A DNA stretch of 64,000 nucleotides, from the NCBI RefSeq assembly GCF_016599855.1, contig NZ_CP067041.1, forward strand, positions 434,001-498,000, written 5' to 3'. The notes under the pieces are model-generated. The model worked only from the letters and a program-made list of their open reading frames with translations. It ran no database searches and had not been told where the DNA came from. This DNA comes from Bradyrhizobium diazoefficiens (GTDB lineage: Bacteria; Pseudomonadota; Alphaproteobacteria; Rhizobiales; Xanthobacteraceae). The first letter of the stretch is position 1; each line of letters opens with the position of its first letter. A program made the position numbers and the translations under genes. Shown here in pieces: positions 29,657 to 37,880 of the stretch.

Positions 29657-30970
29657 GTGATCAGCTCAGTGGTCGGTTCGGTGGTCAGCTCAGCGGCCAT
29701 GTCGACATCCCGCGCGCGATTGGCGCTGGCGGGCGCAACCCTGATCATTCTGACAGTGCTGCTGCCGAATACCGCCAATGCGCAGTTCGGACTGCGCGGC
29801 GGTCCGCTCGGGGTTGCGCGCTTTGCTTTCGGCCACATCATCGGTCTGTCGCGCCTGCGCCACGCCCGCATGGCGGTGCGCGGCGGCCGCTATCGCTCCG
29901 CGGCGCTGAGGTCGCAGGATCCGCGCGGCGGCGAGCGCGGCCAGCCCGCCAACCCCTATGTCTTGCGCGCGGCGCTCACGGCGCAGGCGGCATTGTCAGG
30001 CTGGCACGGCGGCCGCCGTCCGCAGGGCTGGTGGCGGCATCCCGACGGCAGCTATGGCTGGATCGGTCCTGTGTTCTGGCCGTTCGCGCATGACGATCTC
30101 ACCTCCGCCGTGATCTATGGCGATACCACCAGCCTCTCGCTCTATGGCTACGGCGACATCTATGCCGCCATCTTTGCGCCCTATGCGGCCCCGGAGCTCG
30201 CCGCCTACACCGCGCCGCAGGGCAGGCGTGCGCGAAAAATCCCCTCGGCAGAGAATGTCTGTGACGCCAGCGACACCGGCGGCTTGCCTGTCGACCGCAT
30301 CGCGGCCGCCGTGCAGCCGAACGAGATGCAGCGCACCGCGCTCGACGAGCTCGCGAATGCCTGGGCCTCGGCGCGTGATACTATCCGAGCCTCCTGTCCG
30401 GCGGAGGCGCCAATGACCGCGGCGGAGCGCCTCGACGTGATGCAGACCCGCCTCGACGCGATGATCAAGGCCACGGACGCCGTCTCGGCGCCGCTGGCCA
30501 AGTTTGTCGACCTCCTCGATGCCGGCCAGAAAGCAAAGCTCGATTCGTTGGCCAAAGAGCGCCAGGCGGCACTTGCTTCGGCTCAGCACAAGGATGCGCA
30601 GGCGGCTAAAGCCTGCGATCCCAACTACGATCCGAGCTACGATGTGCAGGCGCAGCGCCAATACGAGCAGCTCGTGCAGCAGCAATGGCCCGCCGACGAC
30701 ATTGCTTCGACGCTCAAGCTCGACGACACCGGCCGCGCCAGGTTCGACGTGCTCCAGGACACCACGCTGCGCACCATGCAGACGCTGAGCGCTTGCCCGA
30801 CCAAGGCGGAAGCGACCCCGCAAGCCCGCCTCGCCGCCGTCAAGGCGCGGCTGCAGACGATGCAGCAAGCGGTGGGCGGCGTCGCCGACGCGCTCGATGA
30901 TTTCTTCTTCGATCTCAGCGACGAGCAGAAGGCCGGGTTCGAAGCGATCGGGCCGAAGCGGGGGATGTGA
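29657..30970 (+). CDS. exported Spy/CpxP-like (LTxxQ) protein with a duplicated C-terminal module
   Basis: 437 aa. A signal peptide ends in PNTANA just before QFGLRGG. A Gly/Arg-rich region and an aromatic segment (GWWRHPDGSYGWIGPVFWPF) precede two helical Spy-like modules. Module 1 runs from VQPNEMQRTALDEL to LDAGQKAKLDSL and module 2 from LKLDDTGRARFDVL to LSDEQKAGFEAI; these are internal repeats with one Cys pair pattern (RASCP, SACPT). Spy-type proteins are periplasmic chaperones induced by envelope stress. I use the GTG at 29657 because GGAGGAGG is about 8 nt upstream; an ATG at 29699 also gives a signal peptide. Confidence 0.85.
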   Translation: MISSVVGSVVSSAAMSTSRARLALAGATLIILTVLLPNTANAQFGLRGGPLGVARFAFGHIIGLSRLRHARMAVRGGRYRSAALRSQDPRGGERGQPANPYVLRAALTAQAALSGWHGGRRPQGWWRHPDGSYGWIGPVFWPFAHDDLTSAVIYGDTTSLSLYGYGDIYAAIFAPYAAPELAAYTAPQGRRARKIPSAENVCDASDTGGLPVDRIAAAVQPNEMQRTALDELANAWASARDTIRASCPAEAPMTAAERLDVMQTRLDAMIKATDAVSAPLAKFVDLLDAGQKAKLDSLAKERQAALASAQHKDAQAAKACDPNYDPSYDVQAQRQYEQLVQQQWPADDIASTLKLDDTGRARFDVLQDTTLRTMQTLSACPTKAEATPQARLAAVKARLQTMQQAVGGVADALDDFFFDLSDEQKAGFEAIGPKRGM

Positions 30971-31082
30971 GGGGCTCAGGCCGGCAAGCTGCGCCTCTTC
31001 TTTTTGATTATCCTTCCGATAGTTGCCACGGCTCGCCATCTGGGGCACTTCTGTGCCTGGATATCCCCCGGGCCAGGGCTCT

Positions 31083-33818
31083 ATGAACGCAGTTGAGATT
31101 GAAGAGGCCATCTCCGCGCTGGCCGAACAGCCGTTTGACGCGGTCGAGTTCCCCTTCGCCTTCCTCCAGGCCTTCGGCAACAAGGACACCACGCTCAAGC
31201 GCCTGCGCAAGGGCGAGACCAACCGTTCCGACCTCGGCGGCGTCCTCCAGACCGGTAACATCCACATCGCAGTGGCTGCGTCCGGCGAGGTTACGGCTAA
31301 GCTCGCCGCGCTGAAGGCAACCCCGGCAACGTCGCGCGCCAAGGCAAAATTCGTGCTCGCCACCGACGGCGTGATGTTCGAGGCCGAGGATCTGACCAGC
31401 GGCGAGACCGTAGCCTGCCCATTTCCCGACTTCCCCAACCATTTCGGCTTCTTCCTGCCGCTCGCCGGCATCACCACCGTCCAGCAGATCCGCGAGAACG
31501 CCTTCGACATCCGCGCCACCGGCCGGCTCAACCGGCTCTATGTCGAACTGCTCAAGACCAATCCGGACTGGGGCACCTCCGAGCGCCGCCACGATATGAA
31601 CCATTTCATGGCGCGGCTGATCTTCTGCTTCTTCGCCGAGAGCACCGACATCTTCATTGGTAACGACCTGTTCACCGCGACGATCGCGCAGATGAGCGAC
31701 GCCACCAACACCCATGAGGTGATCGGTGCGATCTTCCGCGCCATGAACGTCAAGATCACGGAGCGCGCGGCCGAAAACCTGCCGCGCTGGGCCGACGCCT
31801 TTCCTTACGTCAATGGCGGCCTGTTCTCCGGCAGCCTCGACGTGCCGCGCTTCAGCCGCATCGCGCGCTCCTATCTCCTGCACATCGGCAGCCTCGACTG
31901 GCGCCAGATCAATCCCGACATCTTCGGCTCGATGATCCAGGCCGTGGCCGAGGACGAGGAGCGCGGCGCGCTCGGCATGCACTACACCAGCGTGCCGAAC
32001 ATCTTGAAGGTGCTCAATCCGCTGTTCCTCGACGATCTGCGCGAGCGTCTCGCCGAGGCCGGCGACAATTCCCGCAAGCTGCTCAATCTACGCAATCGCA
32101 TGGCACGCATCCGCGTGTTCGACCCGGCCTGCGGCTCCGGCAACTTCCTCGTCATCGCCTACAAGGAGATGCGGAAGATCGAGGCCGAGATCAACCACCG
32201 CCGCGGCGAGCCGGAGCGGCGGACCGACATTCCGCTGACCAACTTCCGCGGCATCGAGTTGCGTGACTTTCCCGCTGAAATCGCGCGGCTGGCGCTGATC
32301 ATCGCCGAGTATCAGTGCGACGTGCTGTATCGCGGGCAGAAGGAAGCGTTGCAGGACTTTCTGCCGCTGGATGCCGAGAACTGGATTACGTGTGGGAACG
32401 CGCTGAGATTGGACTGGTTGAGTGTTTGCCCACCGACTGGAGTAGGAGTGAAGCACCGAGCCGACGACTTATTTCAAACTCCTCTCGATCAGATGCAGAT
32501 CGATTTCGAAAATGAAGGCGGAGAAACCTATATTTGCGGGAATCCCCAGTTCAAAGGAGCTCGAAAGCAGACCCTGGCTCAAAAGAAGGATATGTCTCTC
32601 CTTTTTGAGGGGAATAACGACTTTAAAGATTGCGACTATGTAGTCTGCTGGTTCCTCAAAGCAGCTTTTTTTATCAGTCAATGCAAAGCAAGCTTTGCTT
32701 TTGTTGCGACCAGCTCGATCAGCGAAGGCGAGCAAGTAGCGCATCTTTGGTCGCGGCTGTATTCTCTCGATTGCCATATTCGGTTCGCTCACCAAGCCTT
32801 TAAGTGGCGAAATAACGCCTCCAACAACGCTGCTGTGACCTGCGTTATCATTGGTGTCGATTTGGGTCGCCGCAATTCGTGTACGCTGTACGATGGAGAT
32901 GTGAAAAGAGACGTTGAATGTATCTCTCCGTATTTGGTCGCTGGTGATGAAATTTATATTGAAGCGCTTGCCGCTCCCCTCAACCGCGAAATGGGAAAGA
33001 TGGTATCGGGGAGCATGGCAAGGGACGATGGAAATCTGATACTTTCTCTAGACGAGGCGAGAGCCCTTATTTTTGAAGACGCGAGATCGGCGTACTTCAT
33101 TCGTAGTTTTGTTGGATCTCAAGAGTTGGCAAACTATCGAAATCGTAGGTGCTTATGGATTGAAGATCCCGACTTAGATGTAGCCGTTGCTATTGAAAGC
33201 ATCGCGCAAAGAGTCTCGAACGTAGGTATCTTTAGGGCCGCGTCTTCGGCAAAAACAACGCGCGGCTATGCAACCATCCCTCATAAGTTCGCACAGCGCG
33301 CGCATAGGAACACTCTATCAATATCAGTCGCGAAGACGTCGTCGGAGTCCAGAGCATATCTGCCAGCGGACTTGTTTAAGGAAGATGCGGTCATATCTGA
33401 CGCGGCGTTTGCGATTTATTCGCCGTCCATTTGGGAGTTAGCTATCATAGTATCCTCTCTTCATAGAGCTTGGATTGCTACCGTATGCGGTAGACTTAAG
33501 ACCGACTTCCGCTATTCTGCGACGCTCGGCTGGAATAGCTTTCCCGTCCCCGTGCTCACAGACAAGAATAAGGCTGATCTGACCCGCTGCGCCGAAGACA
33601 TCTTGCTCGCACGCGAGGCGCATTTCCCCGCGACAATCGCCGAACTCTATGATCCCGAGAAGATGCCGACCGATCTCCGCGCGGCGCACGAGCGCAACGA
33701 TGAGACATTGGAGCGCATCTATATCGGGCGACGCTTCCGCAACGACACCGAACGGCTGGAGAAGCTGTTCGAGCTCTATACCAGGATGGTCGCGGGCAAA
33801 GCGAAAGACGTGGCCTGA
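31083..33818 (+). CDS. MmeI-type class I SAM-dependent DNA methyltransferase (defence operon gene 1)
   Basis: 911 aa. The layout follows the MmeI/YeeA type: an N-terminal domain (1-130), a helical spacer (about 135-330, with FGSMIQAVAEDEERGALGMHY), the methyltransferase core with motif I FDPACGSGNF at 346-355, motif IV at 486-490, then a target-recognition region and a C-terminal helical tail. These enzymes methylate adenine within a target site. The N-terminal domain lacks a readable D-(D/E)xK nuclease motif. Motif IV reads NPQF instead of NPPF/NPPY, which may weaken catalysis. From about 32430 to 33550 base composition falls sharply (24 of 60 G+C at 32641-32700 against 38 of 60 at 31441-31500), as if the specificity region had been exchanged. 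First gene of a five-gene run; start ATG at 31083. Confidence 0.9.
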   Translation: MNAVEIEEAISALAEQPFDAVEFPFAFLQAFGNKDTTLKRLRKGETNRSDLGGVLQTGNIHIAVAASGEVTAKLAALKATPATSRAKAKFVLATDGVMFEAEDLTSGETVACPFPDFPNHFGFFLPLAGITTVQQIRENAFDIRATGRLNRLYVELLKTNPDWGTSERRHDMNHFMARLIFCFFAESTDIFIGNDLFTATIAQMSDATNTHEVIGAIFRAMNVKITERAAENLPRWADAFPYVNGGLFSGSLDVPRFSRIARSYLLHIGSLDWRQINPDIFGSMIQAVAEDEERGALGMHYTSVPNILKVLNPLFLDDLRERLAEAGDNSRKLLNLRNRMARIRVFDPACGSGNFLVIAYKEMRKIEAEINHRRGEPERRTDIPLTNFRGIELRDFPAEIARLALIIAEYQCDVLYRGQKEALQDFLPLDAENWITCGNALRLDWLSVCPPTGVGVKHRADDLFQTPLDQMQIDFENEGGETYICGNPQFKGARKQTLAQKKDMSLLFEGNNDFKDCDYVVCWFLKAAFFISQCKASFAFVATSSISEGEQVAHLWSRLYSLDCHIRFAHQAFKWRNNASNNAAVTCVIIGVDLGRRNSCTLYDGDVKRDVECISPYLVAGDEIYIEALAAPLNREMGKMVSGSMARDDGNLILSLDEARALIFEDARSAYFIRSFVGSQELANYRNRRCLWIEDPDLDVAVAIESIAQRVSNVGIFRAASSAKTTRGYATIPHKFAQRAHRNTLSISVAKTSSESRAYLPADLFKEDAVISDAAFAIYSPSIWELAIIVSSLHRAWIATVCGRLKTDFRYSATLGWNSFPVPVLTDKNKADLTRCAEDILLAREAHFPATIAELYDPEKMPTDLRAAHERNDETLERIYIGRRFRNDTERLEKLFELYTRMVAGKAKDVA

Positions 33819-33901
33819 AGACATCTGCAATCATTGCGAGAAAGAACGCTGGACGCACGCCCATCAGGAACATATGATGAACGACGGAAATGGGGGCGTC
33901 C

Positions 33902-34186
33902 ATGGCAGGGTTCGAATGGAACCCCGAGAAGAATATTGCGAACCGGCGCAAGCACGGGCTCTCCTTCGAGGAAGCCGCACAGATTTTCGAAGGTCCGGTT
34001 CTGACGGGACCGGACCACAGCACGGACGTGGTTCGGGACAAGAGCTTTGGCCTGCTCGGCGGTATGGTCGTGGTCTGCGTCATCCACACCGAGCGCAATG
34101 GCAGGATCCGCATCATCAGCGCCCGCAAGGCGACGGCGAGTGAAAGAAAGCATTTCGATGTCTATCTCAAAAAGGCGCTTGGCTGA
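33902..34186 (+). CDS. brnT: BrnT-family toxin (RNase)
   Basis: 94 aa. BrnT toxins are RelE-fold ribonucleases that stop translation until bound by BrnA. The family pattern is clear: FEWNPEKNIANRRKHGLSFE, EAAQIFEGP, a central D-x-R region, and the C-terminal RIRIISARKATASERKHFD with the conserved Arg, Ser-Ala-Arg and Glu-Arg residues. A GGGGG run lies 5-9 nt before the ATG at 33902; an in-frame ATG at 33890 is an alternative. It sits 83 bp after the methyltransferase stop, and its last 29 bases overlap the next gene, whose N-terminus resembles the cognate antitoxin. Confidence 0.9.
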   Translation: MAGFEWNPEKNIANRRKHGLSFEEAAQIFEGPVLTGPDHSTDVVRDKSFGLLGGMVVVCVIHTERNGRIRIISARKATASERKHFDVYLKKALG

Positions 34187-36335
34187 GCTGGCAGCCCTTC
34201 CGGAGGATGCGATCGACACCGCCGACATCGTGGAGGCGGACGAGGCGTTTTTTCGCGCCGCGAAGCTGCGGCCGGCGAAGGCGCCGGCCGGCGTTCCCAG
34301 CGTCGCCGTCACCTATGCCAGGACGGGGCAATCCACCCGCGCCAACGCGCTCGGCATGCGGCCGATGCAGGAGCGAGCCTATGAGCGGCGCGGCGAGCAA
34401 TATCTCCTCATCAAGTCGCCGCCGGCCTCGGGCAAGAGCCGGGCGCTCATGTTCATCGCGCTCGACAAGCTGCACAACCAGGGCATCAGCCAGGCCATCA
34501 TCGTCGTGCCCGAAAAATCCATCGGCGCGAGCTTCCACGACGAGCCGCTGAACAAGTACGGCTTCTGGGCCGACTGGATCGTCGTGCCCAAATGGAATCT
34601 CTGCGATGCCCCCGGCTCTGACAATGGCGGCAAGGTCAATTCGGTCGGTGCCTTCCTCGAAAGCACGGACAAGGTGCTGGTCTGCACCCACGCCACCTTC
34701 CGCTTCGCCGTGGACAAGTTCGGCGTCGAGGCGTTCGATGGCCGGCTGATCGCGGTAGATGAATTCCATCACGTATCGGCCAATCCCGATAACAAGCTCG
34801 GCCAGCATCTCGGCGAGTTCATCGCCCGGGACAAGGTCCATCTCGTCGCGATGACCGGCTCCTATTTCCGTGGCGATGCCGAGGCGGTGCTGTCCCCCGC
34901 GGACGAGGCGAGATTCGATACCGTCACCTATACCTATTACGAGCAGCTCAACGGCTACGAGCACCTCAAGGAACTCGACATCGGCTATTACTTCTATTCG
35001 GGTGCTTATGCCGATGACATCATCAAGGTGCTCGATCCCAATGAAAAGACGATCGTTCACATCCCCAGTGTCAACGCTCGCGAAAGCACCAAGGACAAGA
35101 TCAAGGAAGTTGAGCACATCATCGAGTCGCTAGGCGAATGGCAGGGGACTGATGCCAAGTCCGGCTTCCAACTCGTGAAGGCTCCGGCCGGTAACGTGCT
35201 CAGGATCGCCGATCTCGTCGACGACGATTCCACCAAGCGCGACCGGGTCTCTACCGCGCTGAAAGACCCCGCGCAGAAGAACAACCGCAACCACGTCGAC
35301 ATCATCATTGCGCTCGGCATGGCCAAGGAAGGCTTCGACTGGGTCTGGTGCGAGCATGCGTTGACGGTGGGCTACCGTTCCAGCCTGACCGAGATAGTCC
35401 AGATCATCGGCCGTGCCACCCGCGACGCGCCGGGCAAGACCCGCGCGCGTTTCACCAATCTGATCGCCGAGCCCGATGCCTCACAGGAGAACGTCAATGA
35501 GGCCGTGAACGACACACTCAAGGCGATTGCCGCCAGCCTGCTCATGGAGCAGGTGCTGGCGCCACGTTTCGAGTTCAAGCCGAAGAACCCGGCAATCGGC
35601 CCGGTCGAAGGATACGACTACGGCGAGGGCGGTTACGATCAGGCCAAGTGCAACGTCGGCTTCAACGAAGGCACCGGGCAGTTCCAGATCGAGATCAAGG
35701 GCCTCGTCGAGCCGAAGAGCGAGCAGGCGCAGCGCATCTGCCAGCAGGATCTGAACGAGGTGATCGCCGCCTTCGTGCAGGACAAGAACACCATCGAGCG
35801 CGGGCTGTTCGATCCGGAAGTGGTTCCGGCCGAGCTGACCCAGCTTCGTCTCGGCAAGATCATCAAGGACAAATATCCTGAGCTCGACGAAGGCGATCAG
35901 GAAGCTGTGCGCCAGCACGCAATTGCCGCGCTCAACCTGACCCAGATGGCGAAGAAGGTCGCCCTCGGAGGAGCCGATGGTCCGGGCGAGGCCAGCCCGA
36001 ACACGGCCTTCGTCGATGGCGTCCGGAAATATGCGATGGACGTGCGCGAGCTGGACATCGACTTGATCGACAGCATCAATCCGTTCGGAGAAGCCTACGC
36101 CATCCTCGCTAAAACCATGAGCGAAGAGAGCCTCAAGCAGGTTCAGGCCGCCATTTCGGCCAAGCGCGTCAGCATGACCATGGACGAGGCACGTGATCTT
36201 GCCAAACGCGCCCTGAAGTTCAAGCAGGAGCGCGGCCGGCTGCCCTCGATCACGGCGGCCGATGCCTGGGAGAAGCGCATGGCCGAAGGCGTCGCTTTCC
36301 TCGCCCGCATGAAGGCGGAGGCCGCGCGTGGCTGA
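34158..36335 (+). CDS. SF2 helicase with a BrnA-antitoxin-like N-terminus (defence operon gene 3)
   Basis: 725 aa. Helicase core: Walker A PPASGKSR (88-95), DEFH box (201-204), motif III MTGSY (232-236), GFDW near 392 and motif VI QIIGRATRD (415-423), followed by about 300 residues of unique C-terminus. Residues 5-36 read KRRLAELAALPEDAID, TADIVEADEAFF and RAAKL, which matches the N-terminal, toxin-binding half of BrnA antitoxins (IDTSDIPE-type block). The BrnA DNA-binding half is missing; after residue 45 the chain runs directly into the helicase. The ATG at 34158 overlaps brnT by 29 bp, the normal brnT-brnA geometry. The next gene starts 8 bases before its stop. Either a true antitoxin-helicase fusion or a remnant read through in frame. 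Confidence 0.88.
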   Translation: MSISKRRLAELAALPEDAIDTADIVEADEAFFRAAKLRPAKAPAGVPSVAVTYARTGQSTRANALGMRPMQERAYERRGEQYLLIKSPPASGKSRALMFIALDKLHNQGISQAIIVVPEKSIGASFHDEPLNKYGFWADWIVVPKWNLCDAPGSDNGGKVNSVGAFLESTDKVLVCTHATFRFAVDKFGVEAFDGRLIAVDEFHHVSANPDNKLGQHLGEFIARDKVHLVAMTGSYFRGDAEAVLSPADEARFDTVTYTYYEQLNGYEHLKELDIGYYFYSGAYADDIIKVLDPNEKTIVHIPSVNARESTKDKIKEVEHIIESLGEWQGTDAKSGFQLVKAPAGNVLRIADLVDDDSTKRDRVSTALKDPAQKNNRNHVDIIIALGMAKEGFDWVWCEHALTVGYRSSLTEIVQIIGRATRDAPGKTRARFTNLIAEPDASQENVNEAVNDTLKAIAASLLMEQVLAPRFEFKPKNPAIGPVEGYDYGEGGYDQAKCNVGFNEGTGQFQIEIKGLVEPKSEQAQRICQQDLNEVIAAFVQDKNTIERGLFDPEVVPAELTQLRLGKIIKDKYPELDEGDQEAVRQHAIAALNLTQMAKKVALGGADGPGEASPNTAFVDGVRKYAMDVRELDIDLIDSINPFGEAYAILAKTMSEESLKQVQAAISAKRVSMTMDEARDLAKRALKFKQERGRLPSITAADAWEKRMAEGVAFLARMKAEAARG

Positions 36336-37548
36336 TTTCACCGATGAAGACGACGCGCTGCTGGACGAGCTGGGCGTCGAGGTGGAGACAAAGAAGCATG
36401 CGGGCCGGACCGCGCGCGAGGAGCGGGTCGTCGCCGGCTTTGAGGACATCCAACGTTTCGTTGATGCGCACGGTCATCCCCCGCAACACGGCGAAGAGCG
36501 AGACATTTTCGAGCGGCTTTATGCAGTACGCCTCGATCGCCTCCGCGAGCTTGAGGAATGCCGCGACTTGCTGAAGCCGCTCGATTGCCAAGGGCTGCTG
36601 GAAGGCGTTTCGTCGCCCATGGGTTTCGCAGAGCAGCTGGATGACGATCAACTCCTGGCGCAGCTCGGCGTCGAAGCGGCCCGCCCCGATGACATCACCG
36701 AGCTCCGGCACGTTCGCTCGACAGCCGAGAAGCGCACCGCCGAGGAGATCGCCAATCGGCAGAAATGTGAGGATTTCGAAATATTCAGACCTCTGTTCGA
36801 GCAGGTCCAAAAGGACCTCAGCCTCGGCTTCCGCCAGACGCGGCGTTTCGAGCGCAAGTCCGAGATTGCGCCGGGGCGATTCTATATCCTCGGCGGGCAG
36901 AAAGCCTATGTCGCTGCCATGGAGGAGCCGTTCAGGAACGAGCATGGCAATATCGACGCCAGGCTTCGCGTAATCTTCGACAACGGCACCGAGAGCAATC
37001 TGTTGATGCGCTCATTGCAGAAGGCCTTGCAACAGGATCCCGCGGGCCGACGGATCATCGAGCCGTCAGCCGGTCCGCTATTCGCCGACGACAACGAGGA
37101 GGGGGACGAGGCGAGCGGCATCGTCTACGTGCTCCGGAGCAAATCTGACCATCCGACTGTGGCGGCTCATCGCAGTGTCCTGCACAAGATCGGGGTGACG
37201 GGCGGCGACGTGAAGCAGCGCATCGCGAATGCGAAACTCGACCCCACCTTTCTGATGGCCGAGGTCGAGGTCGTCGCAACCTACGAACTTTACAACGTCA
37301 ACCGCACCAAACTTGAAAACTTCATCCATCGCGTTTTCGGCGCAGCACAGCTCGATATCGAGATTCCCGATCGCTTCGGCAACCCCGTGGTGCCGCGCGA
37401 ATGGTTCCTGGTGCCGCGTTTCGTCATCGATGAAGCCGTCGAACGCATCAAGGACGGGACGATCACGAGTTATACCTACGACCCGGCGAAAGCCGCGCTG
37501 GTGCGCGTGGACGACAGCAAGCTGCCGCGTGAGATGCAAGCGAAATGA
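36328..37548 (+). CDS. GIY-YIG family nuclease (defence operon gene 4)
   Basis: 406 aa from a GTG at 36328 that overlaps the helicase stop. The N-terminal 240 residues are acidic and mostly helical with no recognised domain. The nuclease domain spans about 262-345: IVYVLRS (GIY block), HKIGVTGG (YIG block, with Lys-Ile-Gly), the catalytic Arg in KQRIANA (298) and the metal-binding Glu in LENFIHRVF (330). This matches the T5orf172/MUG113 group of GIY-YIG nucleases. In this operon it is the only evident DNA-cutting enzyme and probably supplies the restriction activity missing from the methyltransferase. Residues after 350 are a beta-rich tail. Confidence 0.9.
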   Translation: MADFTDEDDALLDELGVEVETKKHAGRTAREERVVAGFEDIQRFVDAHGHPPQHGEERDIFERLYAVRLDRLRELEECRDLLKPLDCQGLLEGVSSPMGFAEQLDDDQLLAQLGVEAARPDDITELRHVRSTAEKRTAEEIANRQKCEDFEIFRPLFEQVQKDLSLGFRQTRRFERKSEIAPGRFYILGGQKAYVAAMEEPFRNEHGNIDARLRVIFDNGTESNLLMRSLQKALQQDPAGRRIIEPSAGPLFADDNEEGDEASGIVYVLRSKSDHPTVAAHRSVLHKIGVTGGDVKQRIANAKLDPTFLMAEVEVVATYELYNVNRTKLENFIHRVFGAAQLDIEIPDRFGNPVVPREWFLVPRFVIDEAVERIKDGTITSYTYDPAKAALVRVDDSKLPREMQAK

Positions 37549-37700
37549 TCACTACGCTGAAAATCTTCAGGTGGGACGATGATCTTGCCATTGCACTTCC
37601 CCAGGAGCTGGTCGACAAGCTCGCTGTCAGGGAAGGGGACGAAATCGAAATCGTGGAGGCGGTCGCGCCGGAGGACGAGAGCAAGAAGCCGCAAGACTGA
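37545..37700 (+). CDS. small AbrB/MazE-like protein (51 aa), last gene of the defence operon
   Basis: The ATG overlaps the nuclease stop as ATGA. The product begins MITTLKIFRWDDDLAIALP and continues QELVDKLAVREGDEIEIVEA, the swapped-hairpin pattern of SpoVT-AbrB/MazE N-terminal domains (hydrophobic strand, aliphatic-Pro, then L-x-hydrophobic-x-x-G-D-x-hydrophobic-x-hydrophobic). These dimerise and bind DNA, often as antitoxins. No toxin gene follows; the next gene is convergent. It could autoregulate the operon. Too short for many gene finders, but the coupling and pattern are convincing. Confidence 0.75.
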   Translation: MITTLKIFRWDDDLAIALPQELVDKLAVREGDEIEIVEAVAPEDESKKPQD

Positions 37701-37880
37701 TGCTGCAGCCAAGCGCATGATGTCAGGTTTCGCCGGATCAGCCCGATGATGCCATCATGCGGGTGTTTTGCCCGACGTGTCAAAGAAAATTTCTAAAAAT
37801 CCGTATCTTTGCGAAAATCGCAAGGCGGCCCACTGCCTTGCCTACTGTGCATGGGGTTGTTTTCGACTTTTGTGTTGGCG

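Follow-up and report, generated by a model that had tools for sequence, protein, structure and literature searches.

Gene content of the operon

The window (the whole stretch of 64,000 nucleotides analysed in this study) lies in a host genome represented by one contig of 7.1 Mb. We identified in it an operon of four genes on the + strand, in the order MmeI-like methyltransferase, brnT, superfamily 2 helicase and GIY-YIG/T5orf172 protein, with the following features:

31023..33818, + strand: MmeI-like DNA methyltransferase, operon gene 1, with five MmeI Pfam domains; start codon uncertain
33902..34186, + strand: brnT, encoding a BrnT-family ribonuclease toxin of 94 aa (PF04365); another ATG at 33890
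34158..34186, + strand: overlap of 29 bp between brnT and the start of the helicase gene, read from the sequence
34158..36335, + strand: whole fused helicase frame, 725 aa
34158..34268, + strand: BrnA-like N-terminal segment of the helicase, residues 1-37, delimited by the BrnA N-terminus profile, conservation and pN/pS
34269..34292, + strand: variable linker of the helicase, residues 38-45, with identity near the shuffled level
34293..36335, + strand: superfamily 2 helicase proper, residues 46-725 (DEAD, ResIII), where relatives begin
36328..37548, + strand: GIY-YIG-type protein (MUG113/T5orf172; PF13455, PF10544), final operon gene

The methyltransferase scored 371.9 bits for its MTase domain in Pfam and 900.8 bits with the REase_MTase_IIG model of PADLOC, compared with 94.5 bits for DrmMI of DISARM; the BREX PglX models gave 12.3-21.8 bits, below their cut-offs of 400-900. 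From these scores, it is classified as a putative MmeI-like, type IIG-like enzyme, and PADLOC found no other defence signature among the four operon proteins. The helicase was assigned by DEAD (27.4 bits) and ResIII (24.7 bits), both above the Pfam cut-off, and its nearest named relatives belong to Bradyrhizobium, while the GIY-YIG protein matched PF13455 and PF10544 with 50.3 and 44.7 bits in Pfam. This gene context is conserved across 80 genome loci, all of which (80/80) have the GIY-YIG gene downstream of the helicase and 78 of which have the methyltransferase upstream.

The start of brnT lies 83 nt past the stop of the methyltransferase gene, and brnT is probably co-transcribed with it; promoter-like matches, including the one at 33850-33878, occur at chance level (three found vs 2.2 expected). 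The overlap of 29 bp, which had been pointed out in the initial annotation of this DNA, was verified in the sequence, and the helicase also starts 29 bp inside the end of brnT at loci L006 and L009/L086.

A BrnA segment at the N-terminus of the helicase

The initial annotation had also suggested a block typical of BrnA antitoxins at the N-terminus of the helicase, with the DNA-binding half of BrnA replaced by the helicase, and both suggestions are confirmed by our comparisons. A set of BrnA proteins was gathered independently of the helicase: a BrnT search in 397 genomes of the order led to locus L105, and the BrnA encoded there (58.3 bits with PF14384) drew 120 listed proteins, 120/120 of which match PF14384. 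A BrnA N-terminus profile of 38 columns was built from 101 proteins with a regular motif (94 distinct once copies were removed), leaving out the 19 that vary at the motif. Among the 1105 stop-to-stop frames of at least 30 aa in the window, this profile found the helicase frame with E=1.1e-16, and the runner-up frame had a value of 4.1. In the reverse direction, a profile of 51 helicase N-termini recovered all 120 BrnA proteins, including the 19 with an irregular motif.

Residues 1-38 of the window helicase share 26 of 38 positions with the best-matching BrnA N-terminus, against a maximum of 11 in 200 shuffles, and the fused helicase P0070 matches BrnA P0216 at 32/38 positions. A chance resemblance to BrnA is ruled out by the E value and by the shuffles. 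Conserved in the BrnA and helicase sets alike are R7, E10, A13, I19-D20-T21-S22-D23-I24, E26, F31-F32, A35 and L37. Residues 1-37 of the helicase are thus identified, by profile and alignment, as the N-terminal segment of BrnA antitoxins, and the fused helicase may work like the first half of BrnA.

What comes after the segment is a ribbon-helix-helix (RHH) half in BrnA and the helicase in the window protein. With neither the RHH half nor PF14384 present, the protein is therefore not a BrnA. The Pfam BrnA model, a check proposed for the helicase N-terminus, gave no match at E up to 1 on the whole helicase or on residues 1-61, and residues 1-61 had no BrnA match in Pfam or NCBIfam and none in the PDB. 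Pfam is silent here because PF14384 omits most of the segment: in both BrnA proteins checked, the model starts at residue 23 and spans mainly the RHH half.

Conservation of the segment, linker and helicase core

Most of the 80 kept genome loci (537 found) align to the window helicase only from about residue 46, which is also where the relatives' own frames begin. The 120 nearest proteins listed cluster near 685 aa in length without the segment and at about 710-748 aa with it, with some shortened gene calls between. The helicase of ~685 aa is therefore complete without the segment. The protein record P0002 (689 aa) begins past the segment, which the gene caller therefore omitted, and P0019, P0021 and P0022 look likewise shortened.

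From 58 fused helicases with a full N-terminus, 20 whose cores share less than 90% identity were compared; their mean pairwise identity is 0.74 in the segment, 0.30 in the linker (0.27 when shuffled) and 0.85 in the core; linker length varies from 8 to 27 aa across the 58. The pN/pS ratio is 0.30 for the segment and 0.17 for the helicase core (seven distinct loci, 21 pairs each) and 0.29 for brnT (six loci, 15 pairs). A wrong start codon of the helicase is ruled out by this ratio for the segment, which is read in all seven distinct loci. The AlphaFold2 model of the window helicase is poor (pLDDT 57.9), with helices at 5-12 and 29-34; that of P0241, a natural BrnT-BrnA fusion, has a pLDDT of 87.4, with segment helices at 91-98 and 115-120. 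At low confidence, the predicted helix pattern of the helicase segment is like that of P0241.

Linkage of the segment to brnT

Among 163 loci with the helicase core, 13 carry the segment, and brnT sequence lies within 1.5 kb upstream in 13/13 of these. The 13 represent seven distinct loci: the window (L004, L085, L116), L005 (L166), L006 (L165), L009 (L086), L010 (L115), L167 and L168. The other 150 loci of the helicase family (139 distinct when compared over 300 nt of core DNA) have neither the segment nor brnT, with the limit that 13 of them have less than 1500 nt upstream and four of these (L149, L150, L151, L160) less than 400 nt, too little to judge. The segment was found in no family locus lacking brnT among the 163. 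Homologous helicases with the same N-terminus in operons without brnT had been named as evidence against the initial proposal, and the distribution (13/13 vs 0/150) runs the other way. The search for other genomes with the same fusion was also successful, as shown by the seven distinct loci and by the 78 of 121 helicases (P0001-P0120 plus that of the window) that the BrnA profile detects with E<1e-3 when the database size is set nominally to one million.

The fused loci do not form one clade in the helicase tree, which requires five changes in 71 loci; with 158 labelled rows, a broader FastTree requires 12. Forcing the fused loci together lowers the log-likelihood by 57.3, and a single fusion inherited as one clade is weakly rejected (p-AU 0.033; 71 loci after clustering, with long branches dropped). 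The segment and brnT have thus moved, or been gained or lost, together more than once, and the two independent contrasts on well-supported branches are too few for a formal test. The segment is missing from all 21 viral-contig loci. A segment search in 385 genomes gave 21 matches, namely two helicases (one of them that of the window) and 19 frames of 64-174 aa; with 19 of 21 matches in such short frames, there is no other large segment fusion in those 385 genomes.

An in-frame stop interrupts the brnT of L167 (= L225) close to its start, which leaves brnT open in six of the seven distinct fused loci. This locus is a natural allele in which the toxin gene is broken and the helicase retains the segment. 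Short BrnA N-terminus frames without the RHH half and without detectable brnT occur at L134 and L135 (1501-1668) and look like remnants. A BrnT-like match with 44% identity lies on a viral contig (L153:7580-7858), ~5 kb downstream of a segment-free helicase.

These broken or partial copies, together with the Asn7 of the window BrnT described below, could be taken to mean that a brnA already in decay was joined to the helicase by a deletion, leaving a functionless segment beside a failing toxin. Since a useless relic should resemble the linker, the conservation of the segment (0.74 identity) beside a linker near random disfavours this explanation, and its pN/pS of 0.30, its presence in 78/121 scored helicases and the open brnT in 6/7 distinct loci also argue against it. 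We consider it very unlikely.

The BrnT toxin and its putative binding partner

The window BrnT reaches 76.1 bits with PF04365 (cut-off 34.5) over the full profile (1-77 of 77), and matches 7vd7_A with E 2.9e-11. In Brucella abortus BrnT, D6, E7, K9, R41 and E78 have been described as important for ribonuclease activity (PMC5086665). The window BrnT retains K10, R45 and E81, and N7 and P8 stand at the positions of D6 and E7. The E7 position is variable in BrnT; at the D6 position, 74 other BrnT have D in 70 cases and N in two, and Asp is present in all five of the other fused BrnT whose frame is open. The window's copy may accordingly be weakened by Asn7 at the catalytic Asp6 position, which bears more on this copy than on the fusion architecture. 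Among nine BrnT frames extended by long open stretches, no natural BrnT-BrnA fusion was present; such fusions (P0241 etc.) were found later.

PDB entry 7vd7 is a BrnT-type toxin-antitoxin complex, in which the antitoxin chain of 44 residues is the same segment with no DNA-binding half; we found no paper naming it in the open-licence PMC literature. The L099 antitoxin, a BrnA relative, matches 7vd7_B with E 3.7e-4, and the L105 BrnA as a lone query did not recover this chain. A profile of 21 helicase N-termini reaches 7vd7_B with E 0.056, and ranks an unrelated SzPolF chain higher (0.012). Because this direct match is weak, the link to 7vd7 was rested on the BrnA family, and by analogy with the complex the segment would bind BrnT.

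Segment profiles gave one match in the host genome, the window helicase, and three PF14384 proteins elsewhere in this genome are without the conserved block (the genome segment searches scored 12/71 and 19/53 first-look candidates). From this we infer that the helicase likely neutralises BrnT as its antitoxin. The earlier proposal that the helicase itself is the antitoxin is thereby upheld in part: the BrnA segment, its likeness to 7vd7, the linkage to brnT (13/13 vs 0/150) and the single genome match speak for it, and the perhaps weakened BrnT of the window speaks against it.

A variable slot and the insertion site

The interval between methyltransferase and helicase genes was surveyed in 143 loci with the methyltransferase in view, after seven repeat copies had been dropped and 13 loci without the methyltransferase set aside. 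It is at most 250 nt in 82/143 loci and larger in 61/143. This interval is a variable cargo slot, often with defence-type genes, and BrnT is one cargo. Labelled by one representative per cluster, the cargo includes:

RhuM, nine loci (PADLOC PDC-S05)
YhcG/DUF1016, four loci (PDC-S02)
PDDEXK_4, four loci (PDC-S26)
AlbA_2, three loci
GmrSD_N, three loci
PLD-like, three loci (weak match, below cut-off)
zeta-toxin-like gene, one locus
PDC-S67 match, three loci
family of 263 aa, seven loci, e.g., L055:4177-4965 (no Pfam or PADLOC match)
family of 277 aa, four loci, e.g., L016:5174-6004 (no Pfam or PADLOC match)

Two small slot genes at L051:5397-5980 resemble a HicA/HicB pair by eye, with no PADLOC match, and the helicase at this locus is without the BrnA segment.

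The presence of nuclease-type genes in the slot of sister operons, together with a conserved segment on a free linker, would also fit a docking role, in which BrnT, tethered to the helicase by the segment, serves as an effector arm close to the nucleic acid that has been captured or else modulates the helicase, so that the toxin is delivered and not silenced. However, the source of the segment, BrnA, is an antitoxin, and the same segment forms the antitoxin chain of 7vd7; docking of this kind seems improbable to us.

The operon flanks lie 0.96 kb apart in the relative G799 vs 6.8 kb in the window genome, and the GC content of the operon is 59.5% vs 63.9% for the window. Because of these close flanks and the lower GC, the operon looks like an insertion. 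The site (about 30965-37744) varies among Bradyrhizobium-group genomes; in G784 the flanks are 4.1 kb apart and enclose other genes, including one for a long repetitive surface-type protein.

A mobile-looking insertion of this kind, in a helicase family with members on plasmids, might be maintained by addiction. In such a scheme the helicase neutralises BrnT and selection is for operon retention, with loss removing the antitoxin while the toxin persists and with no phage sensing; the view of restriction systems as addiction modules is taken up in PMC12707154. On the other hand, an unfused brnTA would serve equally, so that joining antitoxin and helicase gains little, and in all 40 plasmid records that were listed, out of 264 with a match, alignment to the helicase starts at residue 46 or later. 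Addiction is in our view an unlikely explanation of the fusion.

Proposed role and comparison with known systems

We regard it as rather probable that the helicase is the antitoxin of BrnT and ties immunity to growth arrest, with release of the toxin on infection being hypothetical. A brnTA pair may have inserted itself between the methyltransferase and helicase genes, in the variable slot of a restriction-like operon with three genes, after which the antitoxin would have shed its DNA-binding half and its toxin-binding N-terminus would have been joined in frame to an intact helicase. The first ~37 helicase residues would then cap the BrnT ribonuclease, and because the RHH half is gone, the self-repression of BrnA cannot work in the usual way. 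Since toxin and defence helicase come from overlapping genes, and the antitoxin would now be a defence subunit, whatever removes, inhibits or occupies the helicase would free BrnT. An anti-restriction protein, host shut-off or operon loss could each have this effect, and growth would stop. Toxin release as a trigger of abortive infection is a hypothesis, and we infer the operon's defence function. It is possible, and we advance it tentatively, that the state of the restriction machine (inhibited, engaged or lost) sets toxin activity, and that brnT and the 5' end of the fused helicase gene make up a plug-in suicide module moving between operons of this family. In favour of the helicase as BrnT antitoxin are also the conservation of the segment beside a near-random linker, its pN/pS close to that of brnT, the scattered tree position of the fused loci and the defence-type cargo of sister operons. 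The Asn7 of the window BrnT, the nonsense codon in the brnT of L167/L225, the E of only 0.056 for 7vd7_B and the mere two well-supported tree contrasts count against it.

The closest known relatives are the type II brnTA modules (PF04365, PF14384), which share with the window operon BrnT, the BrnA N-terminal segment, the toxin-first order and overlapping genes, as seen in the standalone pairs L132 and L137. They differ in that the RHH half is present, whereas the window segment sits in a 725-aa helicase of a three-gene operon. Sister operons such as L007, L012 and L036 have the same three core genes, with helicases 82-86% identical, but are without brnT and the segment, and their slot is empty or holds other genes. 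The PrrC anticodon nuclease of the EcoprrI locus, as treated in the available text of PMC12707154 and PMC3506569, would share the logic of a restriction system that restrains a toxic RNase, and exemplifies the guard idea in the former. Its toxin is, however, unrelated and it has no borrowed antitoxin segment, and release has been shown for PrrC but is hypothetical for the window operon.

BrnT-like toxins are described upstream of RtcR-associated CoCoNuTs in the accessible portions of PMC11090510, where a BrnT-like gene likewise stands directly upstream of a restriction operon; the core genes are different, and in these portions no CoCoNuT protein is said to carry a BrnA segment. According to the available parts of further sources, brnAT occurs beside type I systems in hotspots (PMC12707154), and HicA found beside viperins or fused to SMC illustrates toxins wired to defence genes (PMC10865869). 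A BREX survey (PMC12839542) contains no occurrence of BrnT or GIY-YIG, and we found no description of an antitoxin-helicase fusion of the BrnA type in the open-licence PMC literature.

Makarova and colleagues argued, in the available text of PMC3506569, that immunity loci carry suicide genes but apparently no typical toxin-antitoxin antitoxins, and that immunity components themselves may restrain toxins. With a BrnA binding segment built into an immunity-type helicase beside BrnT, the operon looks like a direct case of this hypothesis. The hypothesis thereby becomes a simple question of co-expression, for which the 150 sister loci (139 distinct) provide natural controls.

As in the window, the antitoxin is covalently joined to another protein in single-gene BrnT-BrnA fusions (the available text of PMC11980606; P0241 etc.), but there the partner is the toxin itself and the RHH half is retained. 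Another BrnA fusion is P0265 (176 aa), in which a nucleotidyltransferase (PF18765, 56.5 bits) is joined to BrnA (PF14384, 65.5 bits).
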